A stretch of 64,000 nt of DNA, taken from positions 62,001-126,000 of the forward strand of contig NZ_FNIN01000003.1 in the NCBI RefSeq assembly GCF_900104045.1. Reading direction: 5' to 3'. The DNA comes from Desulfonauticus submarinus (lineage in GTDB: Bacteria; Desulfobacterota; Desulfovibrionia; Desulfovibrionales; Desulfonatronovibrionaceae). Position 1 is the stretch's first letter. Every line of letters starts with the position of its first letter. The position numbers and the translations under genes were made by a program. Below the pieces are notes generated by a model that saw only the letters and a list, made by a program, of their open reading frames with translations, did no database searches and was not told the origin of the DNA. This document shows positions 11,923-22,407 of the stretch, one piece after another.

Positions 11923-13086
11923 CTAGAACTTAAACTGAGTTGTATGTCTCCAAGTATAGTAAGCAGGATCACGGAAATCATCAATAAGATGATGGGAGAA
12001 TTCTAATTCACAAAGTTCAAAGAATCTTTCCCAACCAATTCTCTCTGCCCAATCACCAAAACGTTCATATTTTCTAGCATGTTTAGCATAAGTATCAACT
12101 AATTTACGCATAGTTTGAGCAAGTTGAGGCCAACGAGGAGTCTCGTTTGGAATAAAAGCAACAATAACTTTAGAGAACTTTGGTGGGGTAATGCAGTTAG
12201 AAAGCTTACCACCTGCCATAATAACAATACCATCACCTTCCTTATCTGCCAAAGGCAAGCAAGGACACATAGTATAACAGTTACCACAGAACATACATCT
12301 TTCTTGTTTAATAGCAACAGTCTTTACTTCTTTTTCCTCACCGCTTTCAGTAGTAATCTTTGTTTTAGTTGGACGAATAGCACCTGTAGGACAAGCAGCT
12401 ACTGCCAAAGGAATCTCACAAAGATTATCTAACCACTCATGGTCAATTATAGGTGGTTTTCTGTGATAACCTAAAATAGCAATATCTGAACAGTGTACAG
12501 CACCACACATATTCAAACAACATGCCATAGAAATACGCAACTGTGCAGGAAGTCTCATTTTCTGAAAATCTTCAAATAATTCATCCATCACAACTTTCAC
12601 TGTACCAGAAGCATCAGTTGCAGGGGTATGACAATGTACCCATCCCTGGGTATGTACAATATTGGTAATACCAGCACCAGTACCACCAACAGGGAACTTA
12701 TAACTACCACCAGGATGTTTACGAGAATTCAAATCTTCTTTTAATTTTCTAGCTTTATCCAAGCTATCTACCATAAATTCAACATTATTTCTGGTAGTAA
12801 AACGTACATAACCACCACAATATTCATCAGCAATCTCGCAGATCTCTTTGATGGTTTCAGTACTTAAAAGACGAGGAGAACCGCAACGTACAGTATAAAC
12901 CTCATCACCACTTTCAGCCTTATGCATTAAAATGCCTGGCTCTATGATCTCATGCCACAACCATTTGCCTTTATTTTTCTTAATAATTGGAGGCAGAAAT
13001 TCAGCATAATGTCTTGGACCAATATCAGTAATTCTGCCTTCCATTGGCTTATCAGGATTATAATATCCAGAAGGAACAAAGGTCAT
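11923..13086 (-). CDS. dsrB: Dissimilatory sulfite reductase beta subunit (DsrB)
   Basis: A 387-residue DsrB. It has the family N-terminus ([21 protein letters not shown]), [19 protein letters not shown], and the siroheme/[4Fe-4S] cysteines in [14 protein letters not shown]. An inserted ferredoxin domain carries [15 protein letters not shown] near residue 260. With DsrA it forms the alpha2beta2 cytoplasmic enzyme that reduces sulfite, with DsrC as co-substrate. A GAGGAGG site precedes the ATG, and the gene lies 55 bp after dsrA. Confidence 0.98.
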
Positions 13087-13141: not shown

Positions 13142-14464
13142 TTATCTTGGATGGAGTTTTCTATATTCATTAATATCACGTTGCCATCCACCAGGAACTT
13201 CTTCCTCTTTCCAGAAAATATAAGGATTATGTCTTGGCTCTTGAACATGTTGAGGAACTGGTTTAATTCCTGTTACCTCTAGGAGCTTTTGTAAGCCTTG
13301 TCTCTTCATTAATTCACCAAGACGCTCACGGTTTTTACCTTCTTCCATCCACCAATCCCAAATATTCTCAATAATCTCTTTAATTTCATCATAAGGAGGC
13401 TCTGCCTTAATAAATGGAACCAACAAAGAACCCATTTGAGCACCATCCAAAATAGGAGCTTTTGCGCCACAGAAAATAGAAAGACCTCTATCATCTCCAA
13501 TGCGCAATGCTCTAGGCATAACCCTAATACAATGCATACATCTTACACATTCTTTATTGTTGATGACAAGCTTGCCATCTTCTAAACTCATACATTGGGA
13601 AGGACAAAGATCTATTACTTCCTTCTGAATATCAAAAGGAGTATCATCTTCATGAGCACCAGCATTTGGCTTTAACTCTCCACCAATGTAGGCAGCAACT
13701 GCTTCTTGATCAATCTTAATATCATCTCTCCAAGTACCAATAAAAGACATATCAGAACGAGCAATAGAAGCAACACAACCCATAGGACAACCATCAAATT
13801 TAAACTTAAACTTATATGGGAAAGCTGGCCTATGGAGCTCGTCTTGATATTCCATTGTTAATTGATAACATAACTCCTGAGTATCATAACAAGCCCATTC
13901 ACAACGAGACTCACCCAAACAACAAGCAGGAGTTCTCAAGTTAGAACCAGATCCACCCAAATCTTGCTCAAACTCATGAGTTAATGTCCCAAAAATCTCT
14001 TCCAACTGCTCAGTTCTTGTTCCCAAGAAAACAATATCACCAGTAGAACCATGCATGTTAGTAAGGCCAGAACCTCTAAAATCCCACAAATCACAAAGTT
14101 TTCTTAAATACTCTGTAGTGTAGTATTTACCTGCTGGTTGGTTAACACGAATGGTATGGAAATGGGCAACCCCAGGGAACTTTTCAGGTTGGTCACAATA
14201 ACGTCCAATAACACCACCACCATAACCGAAAACACCTACGATTCCGCCGTGTTTCCAGTGGGTAGTGCCATCATTATAAGACATTTCCAATACACCCAAC
14301 AAATCATCACACACATCCACAGGGATCTGATAGGGCTTCCCTGCCTTTTCCATTGCTTCGGCATTTTTATGCCTGAACTCGGATTGTCTCTTAATTTCAG
14401 AGACAAAACTTGGCCATGGACCGCTCTCAAGCTGATCCAACAATGGGGTTTCATGTTTAGGCAT
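13142..14464 (-). CDS. dsrA: Dissimilatory sulfite reductase alpha subunit (DsrA)
   Basis: A 440-residue DsrA. The siroheme-[4Fe-4S] ligands appear as [12 protein letters not shown] near 180-190 and CPMGC near 225. An inserted ferredoxin domain has CVRCMHC near 305. The segments [21 protein letters not shown] and [15 protein letters not shown] are also typical. It is the first gene of dsrA-B-D-N and is preceded by AAGGAGG. The upstream region carries a -35 element and a Rex-like palindrome. The DsrD neighbour and DsrMKJOP without DsrEFH point to the reductive rather than the oxidative type. Confidence 0.98.
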
Positions 14465-14565
14465 TTCAATCCTCCTTAAAATAGTGGTTAATACCTTTTT
14501 AACTCCACCTATTACCTTAATAAAATCACCCTTCCTTTAGGTGAATTTATTAATCTACATTAACT

Positions 14566-14600
14566 TTGTGATTTTTCCCACAATAGCTATTTTTTGTCAA
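14566..14600 (-). promoter_or_regulatory. dsrA promoter with overlapping Rex-like operator
   Basis: On the minus strand a consensus -35 TTGACA lies at 14600-14595. The palindrome TTGTGATTTTTCCCACAA occupies 14566-14583, starting 11 bp downstream, over the expected -10 and transcription start. It matches the Rex consensus (TTGTGA, six bases, TCACAA) with one base changed. Rex is an NADH-sensing repressor known to control sulfate-reduction genes in Desulfovibrio. The -10 at the ideal spacing (GAAAAA) is poor, so the exact start is uncertain. Confidence 0.6.
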
Positions 14601-14613
14601 CCCAAAAAAGAAG

Positions 14614-15234
14614 CTAGACTTGATTATTTAAGGCCTTTTCTAACTCCTCTAAAACCTCTGGAGCCACCTCATATCCTGTTTCCTGAGCCTTTTCAAAATA
14701 CTCTTTTGCTTTATGATATTCTTTTAACTCCATATAAGCAAGTCCTAAGTTATTATAGGCTGGACCAAACATAGGCTGTAATTCTATTGCCTTAGTAGCA
14801 TTTTCAATACATCTTTCATAGTCACCATCCATAAGATAAGCACTAGACAATGTAGTATATGCCTGAACAAATTTAGGATCTAAAGATATTGCTCTTTTTA
14901 ATATTCTTATAGCTTTATTTATTTCACCTTGTTGCAAATAAACAAAACCCATATTTCCATAAGGAACTGCAAATCTAGGACGAATTTCACTTGCTTTTTT
15001 ATTATACATATAACAACTATCAAGATCTCCTTCGTGCATTGCAATACCACCCAATTGGACATAAGCTTCTGCCATCTCTGAGCTACACATAATAGCATCC
15101 TTAAAGGCATCTTTTGCTCTTTCAAAATCTCTCTTGGTTAAATAAGCAACTCCCAAATTATAATGATGTATAGCACAATCTGGACTCTGAACTATTTTTG
15201 CCTTTAAATCAGAAATATATTCTTCTATGTTCAC
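14614..15234 (-). CDS. TPR-repeat protein
   Basis: A 206-residue soluble protein made almost entirely of about five tetratricopeptide repeats, visible as repeated units such as HHYNLGVAYLTKRDFERAKDA, YGNMGFVYLQQGEINKA and YNNLGLAYMELKEYHKAKE. No signal peptide or membrane helix is present. TPR proteins mediate protein contacts. It is the last gene of a three-gene cassette upstream of dsrA, so a role in assembling sulfite-reduction complexes is possible but only inferred. Its stop lies 14 bp before the dsrA -35 element. Confidence 0.85.
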   Translation of the reverse strand: MNIEEYISDLKAKIVQSPDCAIHHYNLGVAYLTKRDFERAKDAFKDAIMCSSEMAEAYVQLGGIAMHEGDLDSCYMYNKKASEIRPRFAVPYGNMGFVYLQQGEINKAIRILKRAISLDPKFVQAYTTLSSAYLMDGDYERCIENATKAIELQPMFGPAYNNLGLAYMELKEYHKAKEYFEKAQETGYEVAPEVLEELEKALNNQV

Positions 15235-15252
15235 CTTATTCTCCTTTTTTTA

Positions 15253-15624
15253 TTAAAATTCATCCTCATCAATAGAATGACCTTCTTTCTCTAAAAGACG
15301 ATGGTACCAAACAGCAAAAAAATACATCCCTTTAACCTTATCATCTCTATTTACTAAGCCCTTACACATTTCTAATACACCTTGTTTAAAGGCATTACTT
15401 TTCTCTCCAGCATTCATCTCAGAAATAAATTCCTTAAACAATTGACCAGAAGTTCGTTTAGTAACATCTGTTTTTTCTTTTCTAGGATCATTAGGTTCTT
15501 GAAAAGGATCCCATTTATCATATCCTATTCTATCTATAAATCTTTTTCTTCGAGGAGATAAAGATTCATAGATAGCTCGCTTTTGCTGTTCTTGTTCTGA
15601 ATTAAGAACTAGCTTTCCACTCAT
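15253..15624 (-). CDS. Conserved protein of unknown function
   Basis: A 123-residue soluble, charged protein that I do not recognise as a named family. Features are SLSPRRKRFIDRIGYDKWDPFQ followed by a PNDPRKEK stretch, then a helical C-terminal half with a KGMYFFAVWYHRLLEKEG segment. It has no cysteines for metal binding except one near residue 86. It overlaps the end of the upstream YkgJ-like gene by 4 bp and precedes the TPR gene by 18 bp, so the three are cotranscribed. Confidence 0.75.
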   Translation of the reverse strand: MSGKLVLNSEQEQQKRAIYESLSPRRKRFIDRIGYDKWDPFQEPNDPRKEKTDVTKRTSGQLFKEFISEMNAGEKSNAFKQGVLEMCKGLVNRDDKVKGMYFFAVWYHRLLEKEGHSIDEDEF

Positions 15625-16337
15625 TTATCTTCTCCCAATACCCAAGCATTTGGCCTTACTTTATTTTGCTCTGTCTTATTATCTAATTTTTTCTTAATAA
15701 TACCTAAGTAGTTTGCATCATATTCTGTTAATAAGGCCATAGATACAGGGACCAAGACAGTATGTAAAGCTGTATATTTTGTATTCAAATTTTGTACTAT
15801 TTCTTGACTTAATAGGAATAGACTCTGATAAATTTTTTCCATATATACCGTAGGGTACTTTTCTCCTCCTTTAAAGCCAGATAAAGAACAACAATGTGCT
15901 TTTCCATATATATTTAAGGGAATACCATAAACTCTACATGTTGCTGGTCGATAAGGATATAATTCACATTGCTTATCCTCATTTAAAAGAGGACACTTTA
16001 CTTTGTGTTTTCCAATTTCTGCAAAAATTTCCTCTTCAGAAGCACCTTTCTGTTGCATTTTAAATGCTAATCTTTTAATTTTATATATTTTTCTATCCGC
16101 TTTATCAGCATCAATCAAAATTCTATTTCTTTTTTTCTCTGTTAATTGCTTAAAATGATGATTAAGATATAAAGCTTCTATTAAATGCAAATCAAACAAA
16201 GCATAACAACAATCACAACACCCTGTGGCACACTTTACTTCTTTTGGATATTTTTCTTTAACTTGAGCAAAAACTTTATCTAGCCCCCTTAATATTTCTT
16301 CATATCGCTCAAAATAAGGGGTAAAATCAAAATCCAT
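15621..16337 (-). CDS. YkgJ-family cysteine-cluster protein
   Basis: A 238-residue protein with the YkgJ/UPF0153 cysteine pattern: CATGCCDCC near residues 37-45 and, later, CPLLNEDKQCELYPYRPATCRVYG. This family is predicted to bind a zinc or iron-sulfur centre, and its role is unknown. The ATG lies 47 bp beyond the terminator that follows the ferredoxin gene, so the cassette YkgJ, 123-aa protein, TPR may have its own weak promoter or depend on read-through. Confidence 0.85.
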   Translation of the reverse strand: MDFDFTPYFERYEEILRGLDKVFAQVKEKYPKEVKCATGCCDCCYALFDLHLIEALYLNHHFKQLTEKKRNRILIDADKADRKIYKIKRLAFKMQQKGASEEEIFAEIGKHKVKCPLLNEDKQCELYPYRPATCRVYGIPLNIYGKAHCCSLSGFKGGEKYPTVYMEKIYQSLFLLSQEIVQNLNTKYTALHTVLVPVSMALLTEYDANYLGIIKKKLDNKTEQNKVRPNAWVLGEDK

Positions 16338-16703: not shown

Positions 16704-17861
16704 TTATCCTTCAACTTCCTTTTTTACCCCAATAGCTACTTTATAAAGAATAGTTAAAATCAAAAAGCCTGCACAATATACACCAAAAGTAACCAAAAGC
16801 TCCAATTTAGTGGGCGCATATTCCACTATCTCTTCTAAAGGATTTGGAGTAAATCCACCTGCAATCATTCCAAGGCCCTTATCTATCCAACAACCTAAAA
16901 ATACTAACAAACAAGCTATTGCCAGAACATTATCTGATTGTCTATTTTGAGGAAAAAGAAGAATAAAAAACGCACCCAGACCTGCTAACATAGCTACCCA
17001 CATCCAAGCTACATATGTAGAATGCCCATCTAAACCTACAAATAAGTATTTTAAGTGAATCATATGCCCAGGAATATTACTATAAAAAGCTGTAAATACT
17101 TCTAAAGCTACAAAAAACAAGTTTATTATTGTCGCATAAGTAACTATTTTAGCTAAGCTTTGGATTGCTTCTTTTCCTGGATCCCATTTAGTAAAAATCT
17201 TCACAATATAACAAAGCAAAATAAGAAAAGCAGGCCCTGACGCAAATGCAGAAGCCAAAAATCTAGGAGCTAAAATAGCAGTTAACCAAAAATGTCTTCC
17301 TGGTAAGCCACAATATAAAAACGCGGTTACTGTATGAATACTAACAGCCCAAGGAATGGAGATATAAATAAAAGGTTTAATCCATTTTGGGGGTTCAACT
17401 CCTTTATGCTCGGCCTGTAAAGTTACCCAACCAATTAAAATGTTTAAAAATAAATACCCGTTTAAAACAATCATATCCCAAAATAAAATAGAGCCAGGAG
17501 TAGGATGAAGCAAAACATTTAACATTCGTTGAGGTTGACCTAAGTCAACAACAATAAAAAGCAAACACATAGAAACAGCTGCAACTGCCAAAAATTCACC
17601 TAAAATTAATACCCTGGCAAAAGGTTGATAATGATGTAAATACTTTGGAATAACCATCATAACTGCAGATGCAGCCACACCAACCAAAAATGTAAATTGA
17701 GCAATATAAAAACCCCAAGAGACATCTCTGCTCATTCCTGTTATGCTAAGACCTTCTCTCATTTGAAAGGTGTAGGCAAAAAAGCCTATAGCCACCCCTG
17801 CTAAAAGAAGGCCAATCCAACCCCAATAAAGTTTACTTCCTTTAATTGCTTTATCTAACAT
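16704..17861 (-). CDS. dsrP: DsrP, NrfD-like quinone-interacting membrane subunit
   Basis: A 385-residue NrfD/PsrC-family membrane protein with about ten helices. Recognisable segments are SWGFYIAQFTFLVGVAASAVM near the N-terminus and LHPTPGSILFWDMIVLNGYL. In the DsrMKJOP complex DsrP is thought to exchange electrons between the menaquinone pool and the periplasmic FeS protein DsrO. It follows dsrO by 13 bp. Confidence 0.96.
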   Translation of the reverse strand: MLDKAIKGSKLYWGWIGLLLAGVAIGFFAYTFQMREGLSITGMSRDVSWGFYIAQFTFLVGVAASAVMMVIPKYLHHYQPFARVLILGEFLAVAAVSMCLLFIVVDLGQPQRMLNVLLHPTPGSILFWDMIVLNGYLFLNILIGWVTLQAEHKGVEPPKWIKPFIYISIPWAVSIHTVTAFLYCGLPGRHFWLTAILAPRFLASAFASGPAFLILLCYIVKIFTKWDPGKEAIQSLAKIVTYATIINLFFVALEVFTAFYSNIPGHMIHLKYLFVGLDGHSTYVAWMWVAMLAGLGAFFILLFPQNRQSDNVLAIACLLVFLGCWIDKGLGMIAGGFTPNPLEEIVEYAPTKLELLVTFGVYCAGFLILTILYKVAIGVKKEVEG

Positions 17862-17874
17862 GACCTTTCACCTC

Positions 17875-18621
17875 TCATATTAAGTAGTACACACAAGGGA
17901 GTGTTCCTAATTCTGGTTTACGTGTAATAGCATACCTTTCAGCCAACACCTTTCTTACTTCTGAATGAGGGTCATTTAAATCTCCAAAATAAATAACCCC
18001 TTCTGCAGCCTCTACACAATAAGGCTTTTTCCCTTCATCTAACCTTTCATAACAGAATAAACACTTTTCCACTACACCTTTTGTTCTAGTTGGAAAATTA
18101 ATATTCTCCTCTTTCAAAAACTTACGCGGATCATAGAAATTAAAACTTCTAGAACCATAAGGACATGCAGCCATACAATACCTACACCCTATACAACGGT
18201 GAAAATCCATCATCACTATGCCATCTTCTCTCTTAAAAGTAGCTTTAGTAGGACAGACTCTCACACAAGGCGGGTTGTCACAATGGTTACATAAAGCTAA
18301 GGATTTTTTCTCTGGATACTCACTTAAGTGTACCTTATCCCCCATCTGACCAGGAAATAAATGATGAAAGGTTTCTATCCAAATCCACTTAATCTCTTTT
18401 TTGTTTGGAATATGGGGAATATTGTGAGCCTTATTACAGGCATTGATACACTTTTCCATTACTTCTTCAGTAAGTTTTTTAGTATCAATTGCCATAGCCC
18501 ACCGTTTTCCCTTACCATGGGCTCCTCCATGCTCTGTTGCTCTAAGCAAGCTTGGACACAAACTCCAGCCCAAGGTGGCTAACCCAATTGTCCTTAGAAA
18601 TTGTCTTCTGTTGCTTTTCAT
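17875..18621 (-). CDS. dsrO: DsrO, periplasmic iron-sulfur subunit
   Basis: The preferred start is the ATG at 18621, giving 248 residues. It places a Tat signal (RRQFLR at residues 5-10 and a hydrophobic stretch) at the N-terminus, has a GGGAG ribosome site, and overlaps the dsrJ stop by one base. An upstream ATG at 18690 would push the Tat motif inward. Several cysteine groups follow, including CNHCDNPPCVRVCP and CIGCRYCMAACPYG, for multiple [4Fe-4S] clusters. DsrO sits in the periplasm between the DsrJ cytochrome and DsrP. Confidence 0.95.
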   Translation of the reverse strand: MKSNRRQFLRTIGLATLGWSLCPSLLRATEHGGAHGKGKRWAMAIDTKKLTEEVMEKCINACNKAHNIPHIPNKKEIKWIWIETFHHLFPGQMGDKVHLSEYPEKKSLALCNHCDNPPCVRVCPTKATFKREDGIVMMDFHRCIGCRYCMAACPYGSRSFNFYDPRKFLKEENINFPTRTKGVVEKCLFCYERLDEGKKPYCVEAAEGVIYFGDLNDPHSEVRKVLAERYAITRKPELGTLPCVYYLI

Positions 18622-19001
18622 TATTTCTCCCCCTTTGGTGCCACATGGCAGTCCCAACAATAGGGAGACACTGCCAAAGATGTATGACATTGATCACAAA
18701 ACTTCTCTTTACTTTCATGACACTTCATACAGGTTTTACTTAAACTAATATGAATCTCTTTACCTGTTAAGCGACTCTTATATTTTGTAATATGTTCACG
18801 TACATACATATCTCGCCATTCATTTAATAATTGCATATGATCAGCTCGCATGAATTCCACACTTTCCACACAAGCCTTACTTTTGGGCTGCTCTAATTTT
18901 GGCCTTTGATAGGCTGCACTTCCAATATTATACCAAAAAGGAAACGTAAATAATGCCACGAAAATGGCTAATCCAGCTAGAATTTTTCCTCCATCATACA
19001 T
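18621..19001 (-). CDS. dsrJ: DsrJ, triheme cytochrome c
   Basis: A 126-residue cytochrome with an uncleaved N-terminal membrane anchor. Three heme c sites are visible: CMKCH at 91-95, CDQCH at 102-106 and CWDCH at 115-119. Cys44 lies in the segment known in DsrJ to give an unusual cysteine heme ligand. It is the periplasmic cytochrome of DsrMKJOP. The stop overlaps the dsrO start and the ribosome site (GGAGG) lies in the end of dsrK. Confidence 0.96.
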   Translation of the reverse strand: MYDGGKILAGLAIFVALFTFPFWYNIGSAAYQRPKLEQPKSKACVESVEFMRADHMQLLNEWRDMYVREHITKYKSRLTGKEIHISLSKTCMKCHESKEKFCDQCHTSLAVSPYCWDCHVAPKGEK

Positions 19002-19004
19002 TTG

Positions 19005-20621
19005 TTAACCCTCCTTACCTGGTAAGGGTTCTCCCCTCAAATCTGTCTCTCGTTCTTTTTCCCCTGGCAAAATAAGGGCATTGCCCACCAATTCATGAAC
19101 TCCTGTAACATCTACCTCAGGTACCCAATACTCCATTAGTGGAGGCAAGGCAGCCCTATCAATTGCACAAATACAAGCAAGCATGTTAACCCCATGCTTT
19201 TCATGAACATGCTTAACAGCATTTGCCCTTGGAAGACCACCTAAAAATCTAAGCTCTTCTATTTCACCAGCATTTAAACCAGCACCACTACCGCAACAAA
19301 AAGTCTGTTCCCGAATAGTATTTTCAGGCATCTCATAAAAATGGTTACAAACATTTTTAATCACATAACGAGGCTCTTCTAACAATCCCATACCTCTGGA
19401 GGGATTACAAGAATCATGGAAAGTTACTTTTATATGGTCATTTCTACTTTTATCCAATTTTAACTTTCCATGTTTTATTAAGTCTGCTGTAAACTCAGTT
19501 ATATGAACCATTTTTGTAGATTTAGCATTTTCAAACTTAGTGCCAGTAATCGGATTTACAGGTTCCTCTAGAAAATCAGCTGGACCATTCATTGTATCCA
19601 TATATTGATGGATAACACGCCACATATGTCCACATTCGCCACCTAAAATCCACTTTACACCAAGTCTTTTGGCTTCCAGATACATTTTAGCATTAAGCCT
19701 TTTCATCATTTCATGAGAAGTAAAAAAGCCAAAATTACCACCTTCAGAAGCATAAGTACTCCAAGTAACTTCTAAACCATATTCTTCTTTTAAATAATGA
19801 AACAACATTAAATAACCCATACAAGTATATGTGCCTGGGTCTGCAAAAACATCTCCTGAAGGAGTTATAAATAAAATATCTGCTCCCTTTTTATTAAATT
19901 CAGGTTCAGGACGAATTCCTGTAATATCCTCAATATCATCACAGAAAAACTCTAACATCTCTTTAAAGGCATGAGGTTGGATGCCAAGATGGTTACCAGT
20001 TCTGTAACAGTTGGCTACAGGAGTAGCGATCCAGTCAGTATTAAGTCCAAGCAAATTGGTGAGCTCTCTGCCTATAATTGTAATTTCTGCCTGGTCTATA
20101 CCATAAGGACAGAAAAGAGAGCACCTTCTACACTCTGTGCATTGATAAAAATAATACCACCACTCTTTAATAACTTCTTCTGTTAGCTTTCTTGCCCCTG
20201 CAAAACGACCTAATATTTTACCTGCTGTTGTAAATTCACCTCTATAAATGGAGCGCAAAAGTTCAGCCCTTAAAACAGGCATATTCTTAGGATCACCTGT
20301 GCCAATAAAAAAATGACACTTGTCAGCACACGCTCCACAACGAACACAAATGTCCATAAAAATTTTAAAAGTTCTGAACTTATCTAACCTATCCTTCATG
20401 CCCTGGCGAATAATTTCCATCCAATTTTCTGGCAGCTTCCAATCATCATCCAGAGGACTCCATTTGCGGGCATGAGGCATGCCAACATACTCAAGGCTTT
20501 TAGGGTTAGCAGGATAACAATAACGACCTTGTTTGATTTCCACAGGAATGTCCATCCATTCTCTCTTGGGCATCCTGTGAGAAATCTGGGAAAATAATTT
20601 TCTTGCATTTGGTAGAGCCAT
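19005..20621 (-). CDS. dsrK: DsrK, HdrD-like cytoplasmic catalytic subunit
   Basis: A 538-residue protein related to the heterodisulfide reductase catalytic subunit HdrD. Two [4Fe-4S] motifs are present (CVRCGACADKCH and CTECRRCSLFCPYG). They are followed by CCG-domain cysteines in GGECGHMW, FHDSCNPSRG and TFCCGSGAGLN, which build the special cubane cluster. DsrK is the site where electrons reach the DsrC persulfide or trisulfide. It lies 5 bp after dsrM. Confidence 0.97.
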   Translation of the reverse strand: MALPNARKLFSQISHRMPKREWMDIPVEIKQGRYCYPANPKSLEYVGMPHARKWSPLDDDWKLPENWMEIIRQGMKDRLDKFRTFKIFMDICVRCGACADKCHFFIGTGDPKNMPVLRAELLRSIYRGEFTTAGKILGRFAGARKLTEEVIKEWWYYFYQCTECRRCSLFCPYGIDQAEITIIGRELTNLLGLNTDWIATPVANCYRTGNHLGIQPHAFKEMLEFFCDDIEDITGIRPEPEFNKKGADILFITPSGDVFADPGTYTCMGYLMLFHYLKEEYGLEVTWSTYASEGGNFGFFTSHEMMKRLNAKMYLEAKRLGVKWILGGECGHMWRVIHQYMDTMNGPADFLEEPVNPITGTKFENAKSTKMVHITEFTADLIKHGKLKLDKSRNDHIKVTFHDSCNPSRGMGLLEEPRYVIKNVCNHFYEMPENTIREQTFCCGSGAGLNAGEIEELRFLGGLPRANAVKHVHEKHGVNMLACICAIDRAALPPLMEYWVPEVDVTGVHELVGNALILPGEKERETDLRGEPLPGKEG

Positions 20622-20626
20622 AGGTA

Positions 20627-21649
20627 CTACTCCTTACTTTCAGCTGGCTGTTGTTCTAAAGGTTTTTCTACAGGTAACCCAGCCTCAACCATTTTTTCTC
20701 TAAATTCATCTTCATAAGCTTCATAAGTATGAACCTTAACAGGATAATTCCAAGGATTAATATGCCTTTTCATCCTGTTATTATTAGCTAAATTTCGTGT
20801 GGGGCTTAAGAAAACTCCACCCATATGCATAAGTTTACTTAAAGGAAAATATACAAGCAATACTGAAACCAAAAACACGTGAATATAAAAAATTGCACTT
20901 ACACCTTCAGGAATAGTTGGCTTTAAAGTAACCAACCCCATTGTAAGTTGCTTAATACCAATCACATCAGTTTTTACAAAATAGCGCATTAAAATACCTG
21001 ATATTACAATCCCAAAAATTAAGAACAAAGGAAAATAATCTGCTGGTAAGGAAATATAGCGAATTTTAGGCACCACTAGTCTTCTTAATAAAAGATACCC
21101 TAAAGCAACCAAAATAACTACATCTGTCATATAAATGTGAGGAGCTCCAATTTGAAGCATCCCGTCAACCTTATCTAGAGCCTGAAAAATAAAAGGAACA
21201 GGCTCAGTAAAGAACCTCATATGACGAACAAAAATAGTTAAAAATGAATAATGAAACATCAAAGCAAACAACCACAACCATTTAGAAGATGCATAGGCAA
21301 GTTTTGGACCATCGTAGAGCTCAACTTTAGTATTACGAAAAAGAGATCTAAAAGTGACCACTTCAAAAAACATACGTAAAATAACGCCCCACGTGGTAGA
21401 AGGGTTGTCAATTTTATTTTGCTTTATCCAGGGCAAAGAAAATTCCTGACCCGCTGTTGTAGGAATTCTAAAAGGAACAGGAGACTTGCCCCATTTAACA
21501 ACCCTCAACACAAAACCTACAATAAAAAAGAGCACGGCCACATAGGGTATAACCACCCCAAATAAATAATGGAGGCCCAATGCTCCTGCCCCTAATAGGG
21601 CAATTAACACCAATCCAAAGACCAAGAAGAGTGAATAAATCGCTTTCAT
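20627..21649 (-). CDS. dsrM: DsrM, NarI-like cytochrome b subunit
   Basis: A 340-residue membrane protein of the NarG-gamma/cytochrome b type. It has about six helices and histidines in FHYSFLTIFVRHMRFF and FYIHVFLVSVLLVYFPLSKLMH as likely heme b ligands. DsrM exchanges electrons with menaquinol and passes them to DsrK. It is the first Dsr subunit gene in the operon and follows an RsbRD-domain gene by 31 bp. Confidence 0.96.
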   Translation of the reverse strand: MKAIYSLFLVFGLVLIALLGAGALGLHYLFGVVIPYVAVLFFIVGFVLRVVKWGKSPVPFRIPTTAGQEFSLPWIKQNKIDNPSTTWGVILRMFFEVVTFRSLFRNTKVELYDGPKLAYASSKWLWLFALMFHYSFLTIFVRHMRFFTEPVPFIFQALDKVDGMLQIGAPHIYMTDVVILVALGYLLLRRLVVPKIRYISLPADYFPLFLIFGIVISGILMRYFVKTDVIGIKQLTMGLVTLKPTIPEGVSAIFYIHVFLVSVLLVYFPLSKLMHMGGVFLSPTRNLANNNRMKRHINPWNYPVKVHTYEAYEDEFREKMVEAGLPVEKPLEQQPAESKE

Positions 21650-21680: not shown

Positions 21681-22196
21681 TTACAACTCCCCTACCTCTT
21701 TTATAAGTCCAGCTCTTTCCAAGAGCCTATGCACCCTCGAATTCATATAATTAGCCTTTTGACTCCATACTTTTTCTCTACACTGCATATAAAGATCAAA
21801 AGCTAACCCAACCAATTCATCTGTCTTTTGCACAAACTGGTTGTATTCCTCATAAAGATTTTGCTTCTTTATATCTTTTTTAAGAATATCCCAAACCACT
21901 CTTTTTAAAGAAAACACAAAATTAAGAGCTAAAGACGGGGAAAACTCTTGCAAAGAACGAATACGTACAATTCCATCTACCCAATCCAAAAGTTCTTTGG
22001 AACTTTTTTCTTTTAAAAGTTCATCAAAAATTCTTTCTAGATTTAAACGAAAGGTATTGCCTACAGGATTGGTAAATTTATTTAGATTAGATTTGAAAAA
22101 TTGCGCAGATTCAGGTGGATAGCTAGAAAGCAAATCTTCGAACCAATGATTTAAAATCGTTTTTTTCTTTTCTTTAAGTAAAGAATAAAATTTCAT
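21681..22196 (-). CDS. RsbRD N-terminal-domain protein upstream of dsrM
   Basis: A 171-residue soluble protein that matches the RsbRD N-terminal domain type: a helical bundle with ILNHWFEDLLSSYPPESAQFF at the start and FVFSLKRVVWDIL in the middle. That domain is globin-like without heme and occurs as a sensor in stressosome proteins. It is the first gene of the dsrMKJOP transcript and has a good promoter upstream. A regulatory or assembly role for the complex is an inference from position. Confidence 0.75.
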   Translation of the reverse strand: MKFYSLLKEKKKTILNHWFEDLLSSYPPESAQFFKSNLNKFTNPVGNTFRLNLERIFDELLKEKSSKELLDWVDGIVRIRSLQEFSPSLALNFVFSLKRVVWDILKKDIKKQNLYEEYNQFVQKTDELVGLAFDLYMQCREKVWSQKANYMNSRVHRLLERAGLIKEVGEL

Positions 22197-22236: not shown

Positions 22237-22265
22237 TTATTAAACTAGCCTGGGTTTATCGTCAA
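22237..22265 (-). promoter_or_regulatory. Promoter of the dsrMKJOP operon
   Basis: On the minus strand TTGACG (22265-22260) and TAATAA (22242-22237) are separated by 17 bp, about 40 bp before the start of the RsbRD-domain gene. Both hexamers fit the sigma70 consensus well. Unlike the dsrA promoter, no Rex-like palindrome is visible. Confidence 0.6.
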
Positions 22266-22407
22266 GATAATTTGGGAAAATATTAACAAGAGAAAGCCGC
22301 AGCTTTAGACTACTTTAACTTTAAAATAATTAAGAAAGTAAAAAAATTTTAAAATCAAGTCATTTTCTTAAAAAAGTAACAACTAGCCACTCTTCTATAT
22401 GAAACAT

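Follow-up and report, generated by a model that had tools for sequence, protein, structure and literature searches.

The window, as we call the whole stretch of 64,000 nucleotides of Desulfonauticus submarinus DNA that was analysed, carries the genes for dissimilatory sulfite reductase on its minus strand, behind a promoter that contains an imperfect palindrome resembling the operator of the repressor Rex. The features of this locus are as follows.

11923-13086, minus strand: dsrB, dissimilatory sulfite reductase beta subunit (TIGR02066, 483 bits)
13142-14464, minus strand: dsrA, dissimilatory sulfite reductase alpha subunit (TIGR02064, 628 bits)
14526-14544, minus strand: terminator-like hairpin in the dsrA leader, weaker than in relatives; relatives of the family have a hairpin in the equivalent place
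14566-14583, minus strand: Rex-like operator TTGTGGGAAAAATCACAA, an 18-bp imperfect palindrome over the dsrA -10 (from its letters, its conservation and matrices)
14571-14576, minus strand: -10 element AAAAAT inside the operator, with an 18-bp spacer (promoter scan, 31 promoters)
14595-14600, minus strand: -35 element TTGACA of the dsrA promoter; the conserved architecture places it 11 bp from the operator

Both genes serve as markers of sulfate respiration, which drives much of anaerobic carbon turnover, and to our knowledge their control is poorly known. The coding (minus) strand of dsrA reads TTGACA (14600-14595), 11 bp and then TTGTGGGAAAAATCACAA (14583-14566), which corresponds to TTGTGATTTTTCCCACAA on the plus strand (14566-14583), and the palindrome at this promoter is, as observed, real. 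A promoter scan returned TTGACA-18-AAAAAT, scoring 10/12, with an 18-bp spacer and the -10 at 14576-14571; because the -10 is placed there, the palindrome covers it and extends almost to the expected start site, some 100 nt upstream of the start of dsrA. This position over the -10 fits repression. The sequence-only reading had described a Rex-like site over the -10 and start region downstream of a perfect -35; its statement that the site departs from the consensus by one change depends on the consensus that is taken. It is true of TTGTGA-N6-TCACAA, to which there is one mismatch, and false of the full Rex consensus TTGTGAA-N4-TTCACAA (PMC6391272), with which the site agrees at 11 of 14 positions; two of the three mismatches come from the left half, which has GG in place of AA at its inner bases (TTGTGGG).

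By its sequence alone the motif is unremarkable and does not rise above chance. With up to two mismatches allowed, the window holds seven matches where 3.8 are expected, and TTGTGA-N6-TCACAA with no more than one mismatch was found at two places in the genome, as compared with three for the reversed pattern. A looser Rex pattern, TTGTKA-N6-TMACAA with at most one mismatch, likewise gave no excess over its reversed control in the whole genome. Since such loose searches show no enrichment, they cannot define a regulon, and it is the position in the promoter and the conservation that make the dsrA site significant.

DsrA was searched for in 40 relatives from the same genus, family and order, and 30 dsrA loci were fetched, that of the window among them. 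The architecture TTGACA-N11-TTGT...TCAC was present in 25 of these 30 loci, which as orthologous promoters are not independent, with roughly 100-170 nt between the -35 and the dsrA ATG downstream of it. A scan by name placed the relatives in Desulfonatronospira, Desulfonatronovibrio, uncultured Desulfohalobiaceae and Desulfothermus okinawensis, all of them Desulfovibrionales. Of 101 Desulfovibrionales genomes, 17 contained the exact pattern TTGACA-N11-TTGT-N9-CACAA, each a single time and always just upstream of dsrA, while in the same 101 genomes the reversed pattern gave no match and neither did the negative control, the same architecture with a spacer one base longer. When 31 distinct promoters were compared, the -35, the TTGT and the distal CAC were kept and the 11-bp spacer and the flanks were nearly random, although the rows had been chosen for the -35, the TTGT and a right half of CAC or ACAA type, so that these columns are partly ascertained. 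Positions 2 (A) and 6 (T) of the inferred -10, which were not selected for, were invariant in all 31, as expected of a -10, and positions 5-6 of the site varied freely (TTGTG, TTGTT, TTGTC and TTGTA). The site was degenerate in three loci (L009, L026 and L178), and no such site was found in L031, the dsrA promoter read for family f5, or at the dsrA loci of Desulfobacterales. Its absence at L031 fits the placing of DsrAB outside the Desulfovibrio TTGTGA-N6-TCACAA regulon by Rodionov 2004 (PMC545781). A chance match in an AT-rich promoter would agree with the frequency of the loose motif in the window and in the genome, but it is contradicted by a fixed geometry that is kept across several families while the flanks vary, and we regard this explanation as extremely improbable.

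The separate dsrMKJOP promoter had been said in the sequence-only reading to lack a site of this kind, yet the best Rex match of the window, TTGTTAATATTTTCCCAA at 22289-22272, lies just upstream of the -35 of that operon and is conserved.

16704-21649, minus strand: dsrM, dsrK, the dsrJ position, dsrO and dsrP (DsrO and DsrP by NCBIfam, Nitrate_red_gam at dsrM)
21681-22196, minus strand: RsbRD_N-domain gene heading the dsrMKJOP operon (PF14361)
22242-22237, minus strand: -10-like TAATAA of the operon promoter, read by eye
22260-22265, minus strand: -35-like TTGACG of the operon promoter, read by eye
22272-22289, minus strand: Rex-like site TTGTTAATATTTTCCCAA upstream of the operon -35 (matrix; conserved in relatives)

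In the same promoter region the relatives have TTGTTAAGTTTTTCTCAA, TTGTTAATTTTTTCTCAA or TTGTTTCATTTTTCACAA. Because the site is upstream of the -35 and not over a -10, the effect of binding at dsrMKJOP may differ from that at dsrA. The upstream region of the operon also contains a weaker Rex-like site at 22365-22382. The ORF at the DsrJ position gave no Pfam match, and the gap between dsrP and dsrA (14614-16337) is occupied by three small genes on the same strand, coding for a TPR protein, an unknown ORF and a CxxCxxCC-like protein.

A Rex operator calls for a Rex protein, and the genome encodes exactly one, of 218 aa, on contig C2 after the ATP-synthase genes atpB and atpE. It scored 315 bits with the NF003993 equivalog profile and 74.6 bits with PF06971, matched PDB Rex 5zz5 over its full length with both the winged-helix N-terminal and the NAD(H)-binding Rossmann domains present, and carries the DNA-reading motif SQIRKDLxYFGEFGxRGVGY and the NAD(H)-binding motif GVGNLG, as in solved Rex proteins. 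The gene has a near-perfect operator of its own, TTGTTAAAAAATTCACAC, beginning 19 nt ahead of the rex ATG, and most of the family has an operator of this kind ahead of rex. In the wider set, rex was over the cut-off in none of the 28 genomes without the dsrA site (mostly Desulfobacterales) as against 12 of 13 Desulfovibrionales genomes, a co-occurrence that agrees with Rex and is essentially one phylogenetic contrast. The rex search gave no match in the site-bearing genomes G008 (82% complete), G010 (89%) and G032 (97%) and in the genome of L218.

Rex-type sites were also present at sat, at the atpI-B-E-rex operon and at a second ATP-synthase operon, as had been anticipated for the sat and atp promoters from the window sequence. 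The atpI promoter carries TTGTGAATGTTTGAACGC, and of 16 relatives most have a site like TTGTGAATGNNTGCACGA in the corresponding position; ATGTGAAATCTTTAACAA (L272:1730-1747; G000 C2:84229-84246) lies upstream of the second ATP-synthase operon; and at sat, which aprB adjoins, GCGTGCATAAATTCACAA lies downstream of the -10, the relatives having TTGTTAGATTATTCACAA, TTGTTAAATATTGCACAA or TTGATAAAAAAATCACAA. In the atpI-atpB-atpE-rex operon the site of the TTGTGAATGNNTGCACGA form lies downstream of the -10 (L049:5680-5760 on G000 contig C2; L255-L270), and ATGTGAAATCTTTAACAA overlaps the end of the preceding bactofilin-like gene. Given that such sites recur at the other promoters examined for sulfate respiration and ATP synthase, a large part of the pathway may be under the control of one redox sensor.

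Since the training sites were picked by eye, the p-values obtained with matrices are guides and not tests: a matrix built from the rex, atp and sat sites only ranked the dsrA site third among the 63,983 positions of the window (per-position p 5e-5), and a matrix built from the dsrA sites alone recovered those at rex, atp, sat and dsrM (median p values of 5e-6 to 6e-5). With the former matrix the dsrA site was the top site of its 300-bp upstream region in most relatives. When held out, the sites at rex, sat, dsrM and the second ATP-synthase operon scored strongly, and those at atpI and dsrA modestly (p ~0.02 per 300 bp, weak alone). These comparisons bear on whether the dsrA site could instead be the operator of some other regulator specific to dsr, or an extended promoter element peculiar to dsrA, its likeness to a Rex site being partly incidental. 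The dsrA sites do form a recognisable subtype (TTGT-N5-AAAATCACAA-like), their exact architecture is found only at dsrA, and their inner bases depart from the Rex consensus; nevertheless, the dsrA-only matrix gives the sites at rex, atp, sat and dsrM scores far in excess of background, and the distributions of dsrA sites and rex coincide in the wider set. A promoter element is further opposed by the TTGT, which lies outside the -35 and the -10 and mirrors the ACAA. We therefore consider a regulator or element peculiar to dsr to be unlikely.

The palindrome could also be read as a binding site for an HcpR-type CRP/FNR regulator, which would couple dsrAB to nitrosative stress and not to NADH. 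HcpR1 of D. desulfuricans binds TGTGA-N6-TCACA, its authors calling the Rex sites identical (PMC5701242), and such sites at sat and apsAB were given to HcpR by Rodionov 2004 (PMC545781). Against this, a search of the genome with HTH_Crp_2 returned only one full CRP/FNR protein, and reading its recognition helix placed a proline at the position of CRP Arg180, so that a cognate regulator with an Arg180-type helix was not found in this genome; the same change was tied to an FNR-like motif by Rodionov 2004 (PMC545781). In addition, the promoter of the HcpR-like gene and that of the adjacent ferredoxin gene both carry TTGACTTAAGTCAA, which suggests that the HcpR motif may have diverged in this lineage, and the free variation at positions 5-6 of the dsrA site is unlike a CRP site. 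With a proline in the helix and TTGACTTAAGTCAA at both promoters, control of dsrAB by a regulator of this type appears very unlikely, and CRP/HcpR was rejected as the dsrA regulator for its recognition helix without Arg180 and its own motif. The HcpR-like CRP/FNR gene and the FrdX-like ferredoxin gene that it adjoins are at L111:900-2620 (G000 contig C11).

Control by Rex has precedents in the same order. According to the account in PMC7531388, Rex of D. vulgaris represses sat and a high NADH/NAD ratio relieves the repression, in keeping with what the sequence-only reading had stated for sulfate adenylyltransferase in Desulfovibrio. The dsrA site resembles the sat operator of D. vulgaris Hildenborough (Christensen et al. 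2015, as summarised in PMC7531388) in being a Rex-type palindrome at a sulfate-reduction promoter, but here the target is dsrAB, the predicted site lies over the -10 and the left half is off consensus. It also resembles the predicted Desulfovibrio Rex regulon, in which many sulfate-reduction genes and rnf are reported to be co-regulated by Rex (Ravcheev et al. 2012, as cited in PMC4215793) and which may already include dsrAB, whereas the site described here belongs to lineages of the Desulfonatronovibrio, Desulfonatronospira and Desulfothermus type and is lacking at L031 (f5). Almost the same palindrome characterizes the HcpR/CRP-like TTGTGA-N6-TCACAA regulon, with sites at sat and apsAB (Rodionov et al. 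2004, PMC545781); DsrAB was stated to be absent from that regulon, and the HcpR-like protein of this genome appears to use TTGACTTAAGTCAA. Rex control of sulfate-reduction genes is thus already known or predicted, and the site at the dsrAB promoter would be a further case.

The leader between the palindrome and dsrA may hold a second element. In related genera (L007-L030) the leader hairpin is followed by U residues (for example, AAGCCGTC...GGGCGGCTTTTTT), and both sides have changed at two pairs in a compensating manner. The covariation is modest, its score being reached by 20 of 500 shuffles, the folding z-scores were not remarkable, and an Rfam search of the dsrA leader found no known family, only a few sub-threshold matches far below the gathering score. 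The hairpin could be an attenuator or a mere stability element. A wider proposal for this Desulfovibrionales branch, in which Rex would control most of the sulfate-respiration chain (sat with the adjacent aprBA, dsrAB, dsrMKJOP and both ATP-synthase operons) and the conserved terminator-like hairpin in the dsrAB leader would add a second layer by acting as an attenuator, is tentative, and we hold it to be rather doubtful as a whole.

Taken together, repression of dsrAB by Rex at low NADH is the best explanation of the site and a likely one. The site, its fixed place in the promoter, its conservation, the rex gene and the similar sites elsewhere were observed; we infer that Rex binds at dsrA, that binding represses and that NADH releases the repressor. 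The 18-bp palindrome would be the operator for the single Rex of the genome: at a low NADH/NAD+ ratio a dimer of Rex would occupy the -10 of the dsrAB promoter and block RNA polymerase, and when NADH rises, NADH-bound Rex would leave and dsrAB would be transcribed. The same Rex, acting at its own gene, the ATP-synthase operons, sat and dsrMKJOP, would tune sulfate respiration to the supply of electrons. Such control would call for caution in taking the dsrA transcript as a simple proxy for the rate of sulfate reduction in these lineages. A Rex operator at dsrAB, together with the sites at sat, dsrMKJOP and the ATP-synthase operons, would provide a testable wiring diagram in which the NADH/NAD+ ratio sets the expression of the pathway.
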